Source: Sphingomonas parva (ex Maeng et al. 2020) (GTDB taxonomy: Bacteria > Pseudomonadota > Alphaproteobacteria > Sphingomonadales > Sphingomonadaceae). Taken from it: a stretch of 64,000 nucleotides of DNA. Below, piece after piece: positions 56,465 through 62,666 of the stretch. Position numbers and translations under genes: made by a program. Position 1 is the first letter of the stretch, and the number at the start of each line of letters is the position of its first letter. Location of the stretch: positions 1 to 64,000 of the forward strand of contig NZ_SPDV01000021.1 of the NCBI RefSeq assembly GCF_004564275.1, written 5' to 3'. The notes below the pieces were generated by a model. That model had not been told where the DNA came from. It worked only from the letters and a program-made list of their open reading frames with translations, and searched no databases.

Positions 56465-57808
56465 CTAGAAGCCGATCCGGCCGCCCAGCGAGAGCACGAC
56501 CACATGGGCGTCGCCCGTCCTCCCCGCGGTAAGGACGTCGGTCTGCGCCGGCGTGCCGGCGTAGAAGGTCTCGTCCCTGGCGATCGGCGCGGCCTCCGGA
56601 TCGGTGAAGCCGATCGCCGCGTCGAGCACGGCGCTCCGGCCGAGCCGGTAGCTCAGCCCGGCATTGTAGTTGATCCGATTGCCGTCCGGCACACGCGCAT
56701 CGCGGCTGGCGTCGCGGGTCGGCGTCTGGTCGAACTGGATGCCGGCGCGCACGGTCAGCGCGTCGGAGACCTTGCCGTCGATCCCGAAGGCGTGGCTCCA
56801 GGTGTTGCGATAGCCTTCGGCGATGAAGCTGCTCAGCGGCGCGGCGAGGTCGATCCGGTCGAACTCGCTCCAGCCGAAGCGCACCATTTGGGCGTTGAGC
56901 GTGACTCGGTCGGTCACCGCCGCCCGGCCGCCGACGATCAGCTGCCACGGCGTGCTGAACGTCGCGGTGGTCTCCGCCGCGAAGTTGCGCGCCGCGAGCG
57001 GGCCGGCGAGGCCGCTGATCGAGACATTGCCCTTCAGGCTGTGCTCGATCGCGCTCTTGTAGGAGAGGCCGAGGGTCACCCGCTTCGCCGGCCGCAGCTG
57101 CGCGCCGGCGCTCCAGCCGAGATCCACGCCGTCGCCGGTGAGGCGGAGCCGGCCATCGGGCGAGCCCGGCGCGAGGTTCGGCAAGGCGTTGGACAGCCAC
57201 GCATCGGCATATTCGACGTTGAGCGCGGCGCCGAGGCTGAGCCAGTCGGTCGCGGCGTAGGCGATCGAGGGCTGCACATCGACGCTGAACAGGCGGGTGC
57301 GGATCGCCGAATAGCGCTGCCAGCCGCTCGGATCGTAATCGGTCGTGAAGCTGTAGGGCGAGGCGACGGTGAGGCCGATCGAAAGCCGGTCGGCCAGGCG
57401 CACGGCCACCGATCCGCTCGGCAGTACGCCCTTGACGATCGGGTCGTGCATCACCGCCGCTCCACCCACCGGTGCCGGCGCGACGACCGGGCGGTCGATC
57501 AGCGTGCCCTGGTCGACGACCTGGCCGTTGGGCAGGATCGCGGTCGCGCCGAAGGCGGCATCGATCTTCAGGTTCTCGCGGCCTTCCTCGGCCCAGCCGG
57601 TCGCGGCCGGGTTCCACCACAGCGACGCCGGACCCTGGTCCGCCACCTCGCCGCTATTGGCTCGCCCCCATCCCCTAACCGATTGTTCCTGAAGGTAGAA
57701 ACCGGCGGCTTCGGCCGGCTGCCAGGCCGTTAAGAGACACGCGCCGGCAGTCCCGAAAAGCGACAGCGCCTGGATGCGGCGCGTCGCCGACCGACTTGAA
57801 TTACGCAT
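56465..57808 (-). CDS. FadL/TodX-family outer-membrane fatty-acid transporter
   Basis: 447 residues. Signal peptide (~1-34, ending AEA), then the FadL hatch start GFYLQEQSVRGWGRANSGEVAD followed by ASLWWNPAATGW, and a 14-stranded barrel pattern ending in a C-terminal Phe (GGRIGF). FadL-family porins import long-chain fatty acids or aromatic hydrocarbons across the outer membrane. Its gene is divergent from the RpfF-like crotonase gene with 247 bases between starts, which makes fatty acids the natural candidate cargo. A terminator precedes its stop on the plus strand. Confidence 0.9.
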   Translation of the reverse strand: MRNSSRSATRRIQALSLFGTAGACLLTAWQPAEAAGFYLQEQSVRGWGRANSGEVADQGPASLWWNPAATGWAEEGRENLKIDAAFGATAILPNGQVVDQGTLIDRPVVAPAPVGGAAVMHDPIVKGVLPSGSVAVRLADRLSIGLTVASPYSFTTDYDPSGWQRYSAIRTRLFSVDVQPSIAYAATDWLSLGAALNVEYADAWLSNALPNLAPGSPDGRLRLTGDGVDLGWSAGAQLRPAKRVTLGLSYKSAIEHSLKGNVSISGLAGPLAARNFAAETTATFSTPWQLIVGGRAAVTDRVTLNAQMVRFGWSEFDRIDLAAPLSSFIAEGYRNTWSHAFGIDGKVSDALTVRAGIQFDQTPTRDASRDARVPDGNRINYNAGLSYRLGRSAVLDAAIGFTDPEAAPIARDETFYAGTPAQTDVLTAGRTGDAHVVVLSLGGRIGF

Positions 57809-58017
57809 TGATACCCCATCGATGAAAGCGCCGGCGCCCCCCGCCGGCCGCAGGACGATTACGGGCGAGGCCCTTGTTTCTCAAGCTGTTTTGGCGCGTC
57901 GGAAGGTGTTTCGGCGACCCCGGAGCAAAAGCCCGTCCGACCGGGACCTTCGCGCCACACTGGACCAAGTAAAGTTGCGAATGGGGATTGGCCCGATTGT
58001 CGCCGCAGGTTTGATAT

Positions 58018-58036
58018 GGTTACAAGCATGTAAACC
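58018..58036. promoter_or_regulatory. Imperfect palindrome in the fadL-like/rpfF-like divergent gap
   Basis: GGTTACA and TGTAAACC form an interrupted inverted repeat across AGCA, ending 19 bases before the crotonase start and within a short AT-rich island of the otherwise GC-rich gap. It may be an operator for a fatty-acid-responsive regulator; the regulator is not identified. Confidence 0.3.
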
Positions 58037-58055
58037 AAATGTCTGGGGGCAAACG

Positions 58056-58994
58056 ATGAATCAGTTTTTCAGTCTGGAGGCGGCAGGCGAAGCCGAGTCG
58101 CTCCCGGGCGCCTTCGATTCGTCGGGCGGCGCCGTACTTCCCACCCGCCCCGCCGGCGCGCCGGCGGGGCGCCTGCTCGACCTCGGCCAGCTCGAGGTCC
58201 GCTGGGACGCGGCGGCGAGCGCCTTGTGGACCTGGATGACACCGGTCGATCGGCCGAACTTCAATCCGGCGATGCTGCGCGACTTCCAGCGTTGGCAGGC
58301 CGGCATCCGCGAGAGCTTCGCGGGCCCCGAAGCGGCGCTCAAATACCTCGTCCTCGGCTCGCGCTTCCCGGGCATCTACAATCTCGGCGGCGATCTCGAC
58401 CTGTTCGCCGGCTTCATCGCCCGCGGCGACCGCGAAGGCCTGGTGCGCTACGGCCGCGACTGCGTCTCGATCCTCCACAACAACATGCGCGCGCTCGATC
58501 TTCCTCTGGTCACCATCGCTCTGGTGCAGGGCGACGCCCTCGGCGGCGGCTTCGAGGCGGTGCTCTCGTTCAACGTCATCGTCGCCGAGCGCGGCGCCCG
58601 CTTCGGCCTGCCGGAGATCGCCTTCGGCCTGTTTCCGGGCATGGGCGCGCATTGCCTGCTGACCCGCAAGCTGGGCGCCGCCAAGGCCGAGCAGATGATG
58701 CTCTCCAACCGCCTCTATTCGGCCGAGGAGATGTACGAGCTCGGCCTGGTCCACATCCTCGCCGAGCCGGGCGAGGGCGAGGAAGCGGTGCGCGCCTATA
58801 TCGCCAAGAACGGCCGCAAGCAGACCGGGCACCACGGCATCTACCAGGCCTCCGGGCTGATCGCTCCGATCACGCTCGAGGAGCTCGAGGCGGTGGTGGA
58901 CGTCTGGGCCGACGCCGCGCTCAGCCTGACGCCGAGCGATCTCAAGCTGATGAAGCGCCTCGTCGAGGCCCAGTCCCGCCTCGCCGCGGTCTGA
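58056..58994 (+). CDS. RpfF-like crotonase, probable DSF-family signal synthase
   Basis: 312 residues from the ATG at 58056, behind GGGGG six bases upstream. Crotonase-fold enzyme with FNLGGD-type motif YNLGGDLDLFAGFIARGD, then IALVQGDALGGGFEAVLS (Glu167) and RFGLPEIAFGLFPGMGAH (Glu187), LYSAEEMYELGLVH, and a C-terminal LMKRLVEAQSRL. These match RpfF, the Xanthomonas/Burkholderia enzyme that makes cis-2-unsaturated fatty-acid signals from acyl-ACP. The two catalytic glutamates of RpfF are spaced 20 residues apart, as here. Plain enoyl-CoA hydratases lack this N- and C-terminal architecture. Neighbours are a FadL porin (divergent) and a GGDEF-EAL protein (convergent). The product acid is not known. 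Confidence 0.85.
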   Translation: MNQFFSLEAAGEAESLPGAFDSSGGAVLPTRPAGAPAGRLLDLGQLEVRWDAAASALWTWMTPVDRPNFNPAMLRDFQRWQAGIRESFAGPEAALKYLVLGSRFPGIYNLGGDLDLFAGFIARGDREGLVRYGRDCVSILHNNMRALDLPLVTIALVQGDALGGGFEAVLSFNVIVAERGARFGLPEIAFGLFPGMGAHCLLTRKLGAAKAEQMMLSNRLYSAEEMYELGLVHILAEPGEGEEAVRAYIAKNGRKQTGHHGIYQASGLIAPITLEELEAVVDVWADAALSLTPSDLKLMKRLVEAQSRLAAV

Positions 58995-58998
58995 CGTC

Positions 58999-59035
58999 GC
59001 GGGCCGGCGCGGCAGCGCTGGTCCGCCGGTCCCGC
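58999..59035. terminator. Hairpin between convergent crotonase and GGDEF-EAL genes
   Basis: GCGGG-CCGGCG pairs with CGCCGG-T-CCCGC around a 14-base loop, filling the 42-base gap between the two convergent stops. It probably serves both transcripts. Confidence 0.45.
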
Positions 59036-59036
59036 C

Positions 59037-61025
59037 TCAGGCGCGGCGCTGGAGGACCTCGACCTCGGCCGACCAGATTTCGCCTTTCGCCTGGGCCTCC
59101 AGCCTCCGCCGGATCACGTCCTCGCGCGACGGCCGGCCGAGGTAGAAGCCCTGCGCCGCGGTGCAGCGGGCGCCGGTGACGTAGCCGAGCTGGGTCTCGG
59201 TCTCGATGCCTTCCGCGACGATCTCCATGTCGAGCTCGGCGGCGAGACCGACGAGCGCGTGGATGATCGCCCGCGCTTCCTTCGATCGGGTGACGTCGGC
59301 GATGAAGCTGGTGTCGATCTTGATCTTGTCGAAGCGATATTTCTTCAAATAGGCCAGCGACGAATAGCCGGTCCCGAAATCGTCGATCGACAGCTTGAGC
59401 CCGATCTTCTGGAATTCGCGGATCAGCGTATTGGCCTGGGCATTGTCCTCCAGCAGCACCGATTCGGTGATCTCGAGCTCCAGCCGGTCGGCCGAGAGGC
59501 CGCTGGTGTAGAGCGACGACAGGATCATGTGCGAGAGGTGCAGGTCCTTGAGCAGGGCGGGCGACATGTTGACCGCCACCGTCACGCCGCCCGGCCATTG
59601 CGCCGCGGCGTTGCAGGCCTGGGCGAGAACCCAGTGGCTGAGCGGGGCAATCAGGCCGGTGCTCTCGGCGACGGGGATGAACTTGGCCGGGCTGATCGGG
59701 CCGAGCTCCGGATGGTTCCAGCGCAGCAGCGCTTCGCAGCAGCTGACCTTCCCGGTGCGCAGGTCGACGATCGGCTGGTAATGGACCTCCAGCTCCTCCT
59801 TCTCGATCGCGACGCGCAGCGCCGCTTCCAGGTTGCGGAGCTCGTGGAACTGGTGCTCCATCGTCTCCTCGAACAGGCAGAAGTCGTTCCGCCCGTTCGC
59901 CTTGGCGTGGTAGAGCGCCATGTCGGCGTGCTGCAGCAGCGTGTCGCCGTCGCTGCCGTGATCGGGCGCGACCGCGGCGCCGACCGATCCGGTGACCTGC
60001 AGCGAGACTCCGTCGATGTTCATCGGCAGCGAGAGGCCGCGCATCACCTCCCGCGCGAGATCCTGGACGAAGCGCTTCGAGCGGCCGCGGGCGAGCAGGA
60101 CGAACTCGTCGCCGCCGAAGCGCGCCACCGAGCCGCGACCGTCGACGATCGACGAGAGCTGCCGCGCCATCGTGCACAGCACCCGGTCGCCGGTCGGGTG
60201 GCCGAGCGAATCGTTGATCTCCTTGAACTTGTCGAGATCGACCCAGAGCACGGCGAGCGTCTCGCCCTTGGCGATCGCATCGGCGAGCTCGGTCGCCAGC
60301 CGCTCCTGGAAGGCGCCGCGATTCTCGAGGCCGGTCATCGTGTCGAAGCGGGCGAGCCGCTCGAACCGCGCGGTCAGCCTTTTCTGCTCGTGAGTCGCCG
60401 ACATCGCCTTCAGCACGGCCGAATAGGTCTGCAGCGTGATGTCGATCATGCCGACGATGAAGGTGCAGAAGACGAAGCCCAGCACCCAGCGCAGCGGGTC
60501 GTCGCTGATCAGCAGGCCGATCGCGATCGGTGCGGTCGCCAGCGAGAGCTGGACGATGGCGATGATCGGCCGGGCCGCATTGCGCCCGCAGATGCCGGCG
60601 GCGTAGCCGGTGGCGAGCGACGCCGCCATCAGATGGTAGAGCGCATTGTCGCTGCGCAACATGGTCGCGAGGGTGAGCAGGCCGAGCAGCAGCGCATAGG
60701 CCCAGGCGCCGAACTCGTAGACCACTTCGGAGCGGGTCCGCTCGTCGGTCGCCTCGCGCACCCGCGCGCGGAAGAAGACGGCATGGGCGACACGTCCGAT
60801 GCCGGTCAGCGAAATGGCGAGGGCGAACATCTGCAGCCACGGATCGCCCGAGCTGATCGCGATTGCCGCCGATACGATCGCGCCGGCGAGCGCGCCCGCG
60901 GCCAGCGAGGTCGGTGAAATGAACAAGGTGTCGACCAGCGAGCGCCGGACCTCGTCCGCCACCGTCCTGTCGATCTTTCCGATTTCGCGCAACTTGCCGA
61001 TGATGCTGGCCAAAGCCCCCTCCAT
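59037..61025 (-). CDS. Membrane-anchored GGDEF-EAL protein (c-di-GMP cyclase/phosphodiesterase)
   Basis: 662 residues from the ATG at 61025; a start at 61094 is possible but lacks a ribosome-binding site and would nearly touch the divergent gene. About six membrane helices (~35-200, MASE-like) are followed by GGDEF (intact at 304-308, with KFKEINDSLGHPTGD) and EAL (Glu431-Ala-Leu, then LSIDDFGTGYSSLAYL, VAEGIETETQL, AAQGFYLGRP). Both domains look catalytically competent. Unlike RpfR it has no PAS or FI domain, but it lies immediately convergent with the RpfF-like gene, so it is a candidate effector of that signal. Otherwise it could be an unrelated envelope sensor. Confidence 0.92.
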   Translation of the reverse strand: MEGALASIIGKLREIGKIDRTVADEVRRSLVDTLFISPTSLAAGALAGAIVSAAIAISSGDPWLQMFALAISLTGIGRVAHAVFFRARVREATDERTRSEVVYEFGAWAYALLLGLLTLATMLRSDNALYHLMAASLATGYAAGICGRNAARPIIAIVQLSLATAPIAIGLLISDDPLRWVLGFVFCTFIVGMIDITLQTYSAVLKAMSATHEQKRLTARFERLARFDTMTGLENRGAFQERLATELADAIAKGETLAVLWVDLDKFKEINDSLGHPTGDRVLCTMARQLSSIVDGRGSVARFGGDEFVLLARGRSKRFVQDLAREVMRGLSLPMNIDGVSLQVTGSVGAAVAPDHGSDGDTLLQHADMALYHAKANGRNDFCLFEETMEHQFHELRNLEAALRVAIEKEELEVHYQPIVDLRTGKVSCCEALLRWNHPELGPISPAKFIPVAESTGLIAPLSHWVLAQACNAAAQWPGGVTVAVNMSPALLKDLHLSHMILSSLYTSGLSADRLELEITESVLLEDNAQANTLIREFQKIGLKLSIDDFGTGYSSLAYLKKYRFDKIKIDTSFIADVTRSKEARAIIHALVGLAAELDMEIVAEGIETETQLGYVTGARCTAAQGFYLGRPSREDVIRRRLEAQAKGEIWSAEVEVLQRRA

Positions 61026-61113
61026 CCCCGGGGCCCTTGTGGCGGCAACTCCTTTATCTCTGATTAAGGACCCGCGGCGGGAACGAGAAAGCATTTATGA
61101 AGGTTTGCCAGCC

Positions 61114-61332
61114 ATGTTGGACGACATGGCTTCCCGACCGCACGCATTCATGTTCCAGAACGGCGCCCCCGGCCGCGTCGAGCTCGTCCTCACCACGGCC
61201 GACGGCCATCCCTGGGCGGTGACCATGTCGGCGGGAACGGAGCGCTTCATCGGTCGCTATCCGCGCCTCAACCGGCTGCTCGTCGTCGACGGGCCGCTGC
61301 TCGATTATCGCGCCGCTTATCCCGGTCTCTGA
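61114..61332 (+). CDS. Small hypothetical protein
   Basis: 72 residues from the ATG at 61114 (GAAGG ten bases upstream; ATG at 61126 is an alternative). A short beta-rich sequence, FQNGAPGRVELVLTTADGHP, with an LLVVDGPLLDYRAAYPGL end. No signal peptide, no membrane helix, no family recognised. It is divergent from the GGDEF-EAL gene and convergent with the desaturase gene, 21 bases away. Confidence 0.55.
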   Translation: MLDDMASRPHAFMFQNGAPGRVELVLTTADGHPWAVTMSAGTERFIGRYPRLNRLLVVDGPLLDYRAAYPGL

Positions 61333-61353
61333 CCGGCCGGCGCGAGCGCCCGC

Positions 61354-62298
61354 TCAGAGCGGGCTGACGTCGATTCCGCGCGCCGCCAGAACGTCACGCA
61401 TCTCGAAATAGGCCGCCTTGGTCCTGTGGTTCGGGATCGAGGGGTACAGATGGTGGACGAGGTGGGTCTCCATTCCCATCGACATGATGTGGCCGAGCCG
61501 GCTCTTGAACACCTTGGTGTTCTCGTACCGGCCCTGCTTGGTGCGCGGGTGGTGCGGCGCCCAGCTCAGATAGAAACGGATGTAGGACAAGGCGATATGC
61601 CGCGGCAGCCACCAGATCGCCGCGATCACCAGCGCGTAGCCGCTCCACGCCATCGCGAAGAAGAAGGCCATCGCGCCGAGCTGGAGGAGGGCGGTGTCGC
61701 GCTGCGCGCGCCGCGAGGCGGGCGAATCGAGCTCGGCCAGGATGCGCTTGTAATGGTGGATCGAGCCGCCGTTGCGCGGCTGGCGGTTGAGCCAGGTCTT
61801 GACGATCGCCTGCCAGGCGCTCGGCGCCTCGTCGGGATAGTCCGGATCGCGCAGCGGATCGTTGCAATGGTAATGATGCTGCAGGTGCATGATCCGCGCC
61901 ATGCTGAACGGGAAGATCAGCGGAATCGTGCTCACCTGCCCGACCAGCTCGTTCAGCCAGCGCAGCGGCTCGCCCTTGCGCGCGATGTTGCTGTGCATCG
62001 CCTCGTGCGACGTGACGTAGCCGCCGGTGGCGAGCGTCGCCGAGACGAGGAAGCCGAGCCACAGCGGGATGATTCCGGCCATCGCCAGCGGAAACAGCGC
62101 CACCCAGAGCGCGAAGCCGCCGAGGGCGGCGACCGAATAGCCCCACATCGGCACGCCCATGTGCCGCGCGGCGATCTCCCGCTCGCGCAGCAGCAGCTGC
62201 CGCCGCTCGTCGCGCGCAGGACCGGCGGCAGGGGTGCGGACCTCCGGCGCGGCGTCCGCGGCGCGGCCGGCGACGGTCTCGAGAGGCTGGGCGCTCAC
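61354..62298 (-). CDS. Membrane fatty-acid desaturase/hydroxylase
   Basis: 314 residues from a GTG at 62298 that overlaps the upstream stop (GTGA). Four or more membrane helices and the three histidine boxes of membrane desaturases: His98-x3-His102 (HEAMH), His138-x2-His141-His142 (HLQHH) and His279-x2-His282-His283 (HLVHHLYP). The di-iron centre should be complete. It introduces a double bond or hydroxyl into an acyl chain or related lipid. The class also includes carotenoid ketolases, so the substrate is not certain. It lies in the FadL/RpfF-like neighbourhood, which fits an acyl-lipid role. Confidence 0.85.
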   Translation of the reverse strand: MSAQPLETVAGRAADAAPEVRTPAAGPARDERRQLLLREREIAARHMGVPMWGYSVAALGGFALWVALFPLAMAGIIPLWLGFLVSATLATGGYVTSHEAMHSNIARKGEPLRWLNELVGQVSTIPLIFPFSMARIMHLQHHYHCNDPLRDPDYPDEAPSAWQAIVKTWLNRQPRNGGSIHHYKRILAELDSPASRRAQRDTALLQLGAMAFFFAMAWSGYALVIAAIWWLPRHIALSYIRFYLSWAPHHPRTKQGRYENTKVFKSRLGHIMSMGMETHLVHHLYPSIPNHRTKAAYFEMRDVLAARGIDVSPL

Positions 62299-62489
62299 AG
62301 CCAGCTGCCCTTGATGGTGGCGTAGCCGCCCCACAGGGATCCGAAGATCAAGCCGGCCGCGAGCGGGGAGAGGGCGAGCGGAGGCGCGATCCCCGCGAGC
62401 ACGATCAGCTCGGCCGTGACCGGCGCGATGAAGCCGATACCAAACAACAACGGCATCACGAAGAAGATGCCTTTCAGCGCCTGCTGCAT
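62295..62489 (-). CDS. Small two-helix membrane protein coupled to the desaturase
   Basis: 64 residues from the ATG at 62489; other in-frame ATGs at 62537, 62561 and 62582 are possible and the ribosome-binding sites are weak for all. Two hydrophobic helices are seen (GIFFVMPLLFGIGFIAPVTAEL-like and PPLALSPLAAGLIFGSLWGG regions). The stop overlaps the desaturase start by 4 bases, so the two are translated together and may form a complex. No family is recognised. Confidence 0.6.
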   Translation of the reverse strand: MQQALKGIFFVMPLLFGIGFIAPVTAELIVLAGIAPPLALSPLAAGLIFGSLWGGYATIKGSWL

Positions 62490-62666
62490 GGTTCCGGAAT
62501 TTCCCCTTTGCCCCTCAATTCTCAAGCCGAATAGCATGGCGGCCGCAGCCAGGACAATCATGGTGGACGCCGCGTTAATCATCGGCGCCGAGGCGAAAGA
62601 TCCGCAGCAGAGAGGGCGCCGCGCACGCGCACGGAAACAGTCGCTCCGATCGTCCGTTGTCGGGAC

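Follow-up and report, generated by a model that had tools for sequence, protein, structure and literature searches.

Can a crotonase gene of the rpfF type and the membrane GGDEF-EAL gene that faces it form a fatty-acid signalling circuit by themselves? The question is raised by a stretch of 64,000 nucleotides from Sphingomonas parva (contig NZ_SPDV01000021.1, positions 1 to 64,000; 69% G+C), called the window here. An earlier note had proposed a six-kb module of the diffusible signal factor (DSF) type, with an RpfF-like crotonase as synthase, a FadL-type porin as possible importer, a membrane GGDEF-EAL protein acting on cyclic di-GMP (c-di-GMP), a desaturase and a two-helix protein. Open reading frames (ORFs) and domain matches confirm that all five genes are present and oriented as described, the FadL gene divergent from the crotonase gene (rpfF) and the GGDEF-EAL gene convergent with it. 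As a module the proposal stands in part, as the pair of rpfF and the GGDEF-EAL gene (its product abbreviated GE) is conserved and the other three genes are not. The elements of this pair are:

58056-58994, plus strand: RpfF-family crotonase (PRK08788) of 312 amino acids, candidate DSF-type signal synthase (PF00378, 79 bits)
59037-61094, minus strand: GE, membrane GGDEF-EAL protein of 685 amino acids, convergent with rpfF, candidate receptor and c-di-GMP effector
60375-61025, minus strand: GE_N, the N-terminal membrane domain of GE, candidate sensor (AlphaFold model, hydropathy)
59886-60350, minus strand: GGDEF domain of GE, residues 249-403 (Pfam GGDEF, 151 bits)
59130-59825, minus strand: EAL domain of GE (Pfam EAL, 243 bits; EALLRW and DDFGTG motifs intact)

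The gap between the convergent genes is 42 nt. The start of rpfF is most likely at 58056, as a longer ORF from 57774 would overlap the FadL gene; an alternative GE start, a Met near 61022, would give 661 amino acids. We consider it probable that rpfF and GE constitute a two-gene DSF-type circuit in which the receptor is a one-protein membrane GGDEF-EAL. The grounds for this are homology, catalytic motifs that are intact, the physical pairing of the two genes and their co-occurrence, the exclusion of RpfC and matched trees.

Pairing of rpfF and GE in the Sphingomonadaceae

RpfF was found in 74 of 199 genomes of the Sphingomonadaceae (in the GTDB sense), one copy each, and the 73 other rpfF loci were fetched with up to 9 kb per side, less at contig ends, where several of them stop. 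A GE gene whose product has a homologous membrane domain lies convergent beside rpfF in 17 of the 73, and 50 have another conserved neighbourhood in common, without GE. The other six (L106-L111) carry a GGDEF-EAL gene lacking GE_N about 2.6 kb downstream of rpfF, and the gene in between, called in five of them, encodes an RpfC-like hybrid kinase; for L106, Pfam assigns HisKA, HATPase, REC and Hpt domains to the kinase and a REC-PAS-GGDEF-EAL order to the next protein. Scored by genome, with GE taken as present from 50 bits (a cut-off of our own), 67 genomes possess both RpfF and GE, seven RpfF only, 13 GE only and 112 neither. Six of the seven with RpfF only are exactly the RpfF genomes that have the RpfC input domain, in a kinase convergent with rpfF, and the seventh (G135) is a draft that is 77% complete. 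No match to the RpfC input domain was obtained in any of the 67 genomes with both, at most 14 candidates being scored per genome in this search. The genome of the window gave matches spanning only profile positions 152-220, the start of the kinase, and the absence of an RpfC/RpfG route claimed in the earlier note agrees with the lack of any RpfC sensor domain among the candidates scored there. A partial RpfC-type match (121 bits) was seen in one RpfF-less genome, G042. Co-occurrence across sphingomonads, which had been suggested as a check, thus holds for the rpfF-GE pair both by adjacency (17 of 73 loci) and by gene content (GE in 67 of 74 RpfF genomes).

Within the genus of the window, RpfF is present in six of 26 genomes, and GE_N matches of at least 250 bits occur in exactly those six. 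GE adjoins rpfF in four of the five other RpfF genomes; in G591 the two genes are on separate contigs, each of which keeps part of the usual neighbours. One RpfF-less congener (G598, locus L293) has GE_N at 192-194 bits in a protein of 342 amino acids with no called GGDEF or EAL domain, and three further genomes have weak GE_N matches. A plus-strand ORF of the window, 60799-61332, overlaps the start of GE on the opposite strand and extends past it; each of the five other genomes of the genus with RpfF has a homologue of it, and in G591 the homologue stays with GE while rpfF is on another contig.

The search was widened to 385 alphaproteobacterial genomes; RpfF occurs in 24, and 22 of these do not belong to the Sphingomonadaceae. 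An RpfC-type kinase adjoins rpfF in 15 of the 23 loci fetched from this sample and GE in none. Named relatives were covered by the best 80 of 465 RpfF-like loci, 15 of which have GE beside rpfF (three contigs were already in the family sample). These come from Sphingomonas phyllosphaerae, S. paucimobilis NBRC 13935, S. echinoides, a Candidatus Sphingomonas, Parasphingopyxis lamellibrachiae, Sphingobium chlorophenolicum, S. chungbukense, S. wenxiniae, two more Sphingobium strains, a Sphingopyxis metagenome-assembled genome (MAG), an alphaproteobacterial MAG and three MAGs labelled Pseudolabrys, Hyphomicrobiales and Proteobacteria, the last three having GE divergent from rpfF. The RpfC input domain is present in 40 of the best 80 loci, and none of the 80 holds GE and RpfC together.

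In all, 38 loci from about 35 genomes hold both genes (three contigs are counted twice), and in all 38 rpfF and GE are immediate neighbours, 35 times convergent and three times divergent. Their flanks vary, with 22 gene clusters beyond rpfF and 26 beyond GE. The pairing is therefore conserved well beyond what would be expected from a fixed block of gene order, and the pair outlasts its surroundings. In three loci of one genus (L039, L040 and L041) a second, larger GGDEF-EAL gene directly follows GE; its product has 781 amino acids in L039 and L041.

A FastTree phylogeny of RpfF with 155 rows (27 of 182 sequences, at least 85% identical to one kept, were left out) contains one clade of 71 rows with support 100, composed of 27 rows with GE adjacent, 40 with GE elsewhere in the genome and four unclassified. 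Every GE-adjacent and GE-elsewhere row of the tree lies in this clade, and none of the 59 rows whose locus contains RpfC falls within it, those from sphingomonads included; the tree label for these 59, 'RpfC_next', means RpfC within the fetched locus and not strict adjacency. For the GE tree, GE was fetched from 12 of the 49 unlinked genomes and 5 of the 13 RpfF-less ones, and the linked loci L045, L065, L186, L193 and L202 were left out. As the unlinked rows nest inside the GE-adjacent rows in both trees, the linkage of rpfF and GE is probably ancestral.

One explanation for these data is that co-occurrence reflects shared descent only, the two genes having been fixed side by side in an ancestor with no functional link. 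Both genes are indeed widespread in the unlinked group, and GE persists in 13 of the 125 family genomes that lack RpfF. However, adjacency has survived the 22 and 26 flanking contexts and two orientations, the pair is patchy within one genus yet always together at genome level, and no RpfC locus held GE. We regard shared descent alone as a very unlikely explanation and retain the two-gene circuit.

The crotonase and the membrane GGDEF-EAL protein

The window crotonase is one of eight crotonase-domain matches in its genome. Its description as RpfF-like is borne out by NCBIfam PRK08788, which it matches at 352 bits (cut-off 177), by its closest PDB relatives and by its active site. The closest structures are 7zq7, the RpfF structure 3m6m, 5fus and the RpfF structure 6dgn, at 2.8e-49 to 6.5e-44; 5fus is RpfFBc (PMC6361424). 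Both catalytic glutamates are present in an alignment to 3m6m, as Glu167 (GGGFE) and Glu187 (GLPE), and do not vary among the 23 relatives that were aligned. The equivalent pair in Xanthomonas RpfF we take to be Glu141 and Glu161.

An alternative would be that the crotonase serves fatty-acid breakdown as an ordinary enoyl-CoA hydratase, with GE an unrelated c-di-GMP enzyme. The name of PRK08788, merely crotonase/enoyl-CoA hydratase family, leaves room for this, but the next-best crotonase structure is reached only at 1.4e-15, so that the window crotonase is closer to the RpfF structures, and members of its family stand beside RpfC in the 15 of 23 class-wide loci and share the locus with the RpfC input domain in the 40 of the best 80 loci described above. 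An ordinary hydratase is accordingly an extremely improbable reading.

GE is among 16 EAL-domain matches in the genome. The 18 GE proteins aligned all have an intact GGDEF motif, and none has an RxxD I-site with the usual spacing. Their EAL active site is invariant at the Glu, Asn, Glu, Asp-Asp, Lys, Glu and Gln positions; the EAL motif itself reads EAL in 16 and EVL in two. Judged from these motifs, GE could both make and break c-di-GMP. Pfam detects no domain in the N-terminal part of GE and no PAS domain in the window protein, which bears out its description as a membrane GGDEF-EAL protein without the PAS domain of RpfR; an extra PAS_7 domain after the membrane domain was found in L195, the only one scanned of the three non-sphingomonad loci with divergent GE. 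The AlphaFold model of GE_N (pLDDT 88.4, pTM 0.85) has two N-terminal helices followed by six long ones, and simple hydropathy gives five segments. GE_N gave no significant Foldseek match to a known fold, and profile comparison rejected it as a variant of the RpfC input domain (hhalign probability 0.6%; distant kinship is possible). In VIA-align it gave moderate matches only, among the families listed there.

GE as a candidate DSF receptor

Both characterised systems have their receptor gene in convergent orientation to rpfF, as rpfGHC in Xanthomonas and as rpfR in Burkholderia (PMC4504480, PMC6361424), which puts GE in a receptor position in one lineage. By analogy with RpfF biochemistry, 3-hydroxyacyl-ACP would be turned by the crotonase into a cis-2-unsaturated fatty acid, which would then be released. 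The N-terminal helical domain of GE would sense this signal in the membrane, and sensing would switch GE's own phosphodiesterase and/or cyclase, changing c-di-GMP with no kinase or response regulator. The identity of the signal, the binding of a ligand and the direction of the response are what we infer here. Signal-activated breakdown of c-di-GMP is the default guess, because BDSF activates the RpfR phosphodiesterase (PMC12838280, PMC8846402).

The proposed circuit resembles the RpfF/RpfR systems of Burkholderia and Cronobacter in its RpfF-family synthase, convergent GGDEF-EAL gene and direct action on c-di-GMP (PMC4504480, PMC6361424); unlike GE, which has a membrane domain and no PAS, RpfR is a soluble protein that carries FI and PAS domains. 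With RpfF/RpfC/RpfG of Xanthomonas and the alphaproteobacterial RpfF/RpfC loci it shares a convergent gene, a membrane input domain and a c-di-GMP output, but RpfC is a hybrid histidine kinase, GE has no kinase or regulator step, and the RpfC input domain has no profile similarity to GE_N. The closest known systems also include membrane-bound diguanylate and adenylate cyclases whose membrane domains, of the MASE-like kind, have six helices (ImcA and adenylyl cyclase 9, with Rv1625c from the literature). A 2022 census of c-di-GMP sensing has RpfR as its DSF-type receptor (PMC8846402), and in open-access PMC literature, at the level of titles, abstracts and a few passages and with subscription journals outside this scope, no paper was found that deals with a membrane GGDEF-EAL protein linked to RpfF or with sphingomonad DSF signalling. 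The new receptor type proposed in the earlier note is upheld as far as the conserved pairing, the lack of a detected RpfC sensor domain and the lack of PAS go; its link to a ligand would be the inferred part.

A number of observations weigh against the two-gene circuit. The crotonase fails the narrow NCBIfam RpfF equivalog model (189 bits, cut-off 550) and is therefore classed as an RpfF-family crotonase and not as an RpfF equivalog. The Fisher test on the RpfF/GE table (p = 2.8e-31) describes the table only and is no true probability, because the genomes are related; the correlation of RpfF and GE distance matrices, which counts in favour of the circuit (r = 0.90 for 44 matched pairs, with none of 2000 permutations as high, and r = 0.92 for the 12 unlinked pairs alone), likewise reflects shared descent in part, and for the value of 0.90 perhaps largely. 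The retention of GE in RpfF-less family genomes and the limited depth of the RpfC search belong here as well. GE_N is present in seven of the 385 genomes of the class sample, only three of which have RpfF, and in 35 of 398 genomes of a phylum sample, and only one of the 22 RpfF genomes outside the family has a GE_N match, a weak one at 57 bits. Of 12 GE_N regions fetched from outside the family (11 phylum-sample matches and G472 from the class search), ten have no RpfF-like neighbour, and the strongest GE_N residues, Arg78, Arg148 and Gln159, are also kept in GE_N proteins without RpfF nearby.

As the conserved GE_N residues are mostly shared with such proteins, they are unsupported as a DSF-specific site. 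Two of the regions outside the family call for comment. In G840, reached through the GE_N search alone, GE adjoins a complete and convergent rpfF gene, so that the reverse search recovers the pair; in G935 the GE_N gene has a crotonase gene divergent from it, whose product was not counted as RpfF (173 bits, with Asp at the first Glu position). The GE_N proteins of one family (f171) form a separate clade.

Another possibility is that the pair is functional but GE senses a different input, such as membrane state, another lipid or redox, with RpfF acting as a thioesterase that supplies or trims fatty acids and GE reporting the fatty-acid status of the membrane and not cell density. GE_N belongs to a wider family of membrane domains that occurs without RpfF nearby, its core residues do not single out RpfF genomes, and RpfF enzymes have broad thioesterase activity (PMC4504480); on the other side, GE is convergent with rpfF just as the known receptor genes are, and RpfC is excluded. 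We consider this alternative unlikely. GE without RpfF fits receptor solos, and also a GE with another input. A strong case can be made from sequence that rpfF and GE are a conserved synthase-effector pair and GE a candidate for a new class of DSF receptor. More tentatively, DSF perception may have a third core class in GE, a putative one-component receptor whose membrane helical domain would bind a cis-2 fatty acid and directly drive GGDEF-EAL turnover, replacing RpfC across one entire RpfF lineage of alphaproteobacteria and eavesdropping as a solo where the synthase is absent.

Local neighbours and other partners of RpfF

Three further genes of the window had been proposed as module parts:

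56465-57808, minus strand: FadL/OmpP1-type (Toluene_X) porin, divergent from rpfF (PF03349, 258 bits)
about 61354-62301, minus strand: FA_desaturase-superfamily protein (PF00487, 109 bits)
about 62295-62582, minus strand: small two-helix membrane protein (ORF), its end overlapping the start of the desaturase gene

None of them was found near rpfF in the 73 other family loci, and on conservation all three, the FadL importer included, were rejected as parts of the module. They are local accessories, seen beside the pair only within the genus. FadL is beside rpfF in four of the six RpfF genomes of the genus, window included. A close homologue of the desaturase is found in two of the 26 genomes, again with the window, in addition to one weak match at 29% identity, and a homologue of the two-helix protein only in L266 among seven genus loci searched; in L266 the two recur together. 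The 'fatty-acid' label of the desaturase is unproven, because its best NCBIfam match is the beta-carotene hydroxylase CrtR at 87 of 475 bits.

Other arrangements were encountered around RpfF. The gene caller missed RpfF itself in five of the 80 named loci (L227, L246, L250, L255 and L261) and in L140, and in L119, L120, L142, L143, L231 and L238 RpfF lies within frames of about 630-850 amino acids, which are either fusions or G+C-rich upstream read-through. L214 and L218 have extra proteins of 276-301 amino acids beside the RpfF/RpfC locus that match the RpfC input domain and are reminiscent of RpfH; L218, labelled Mycobacterium sp. KBS0706, is probably mislabelled or contaminated, because its RpfF groups with alphaproteobacteria. 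In betaproteobacterial MAGs (L234, 7904-9940; L235, 2169-4160; L236, L239 and L241) RpfF is followed on the same strand, in L239 after one intervening ORF, by a GGDEF-EAL gene with a MerR-like start; Pfam confirmed MerR-PAS-GGDEF-EAL in L234 and L235, the two scanned, and this protein looks like another undescribed partner of RpfF. GGDEF-EAL proteins with a hydrophobic N-terminus are also encoded one or two genes from RpfF in gammaproteobacterial MAGs (L233, 1996-4074; L251, 2004-4094) and, with a PAS_9 domain, adjacent to RpfF in a deltaproteobacterial MAG (L262, 1548-3872). The last was tried as a relative of GE_N and rejected, its N-terminal part not being detectably related.

The rpfF-GE pairing reaches many sphingomonads, bacteria common in soil, water, leaves and biofilm plants, plus a few other bacteria. 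With a candidate ligand synthase encoded next door, the question of what ligand the membrane domain of a GGDEF-EAL protein perceives becomes testable. If the proposed circuit is true, a large share of sphingomonads would use fatty-acid signalling, and one membrane protein would join perception to c-di-GMP output.

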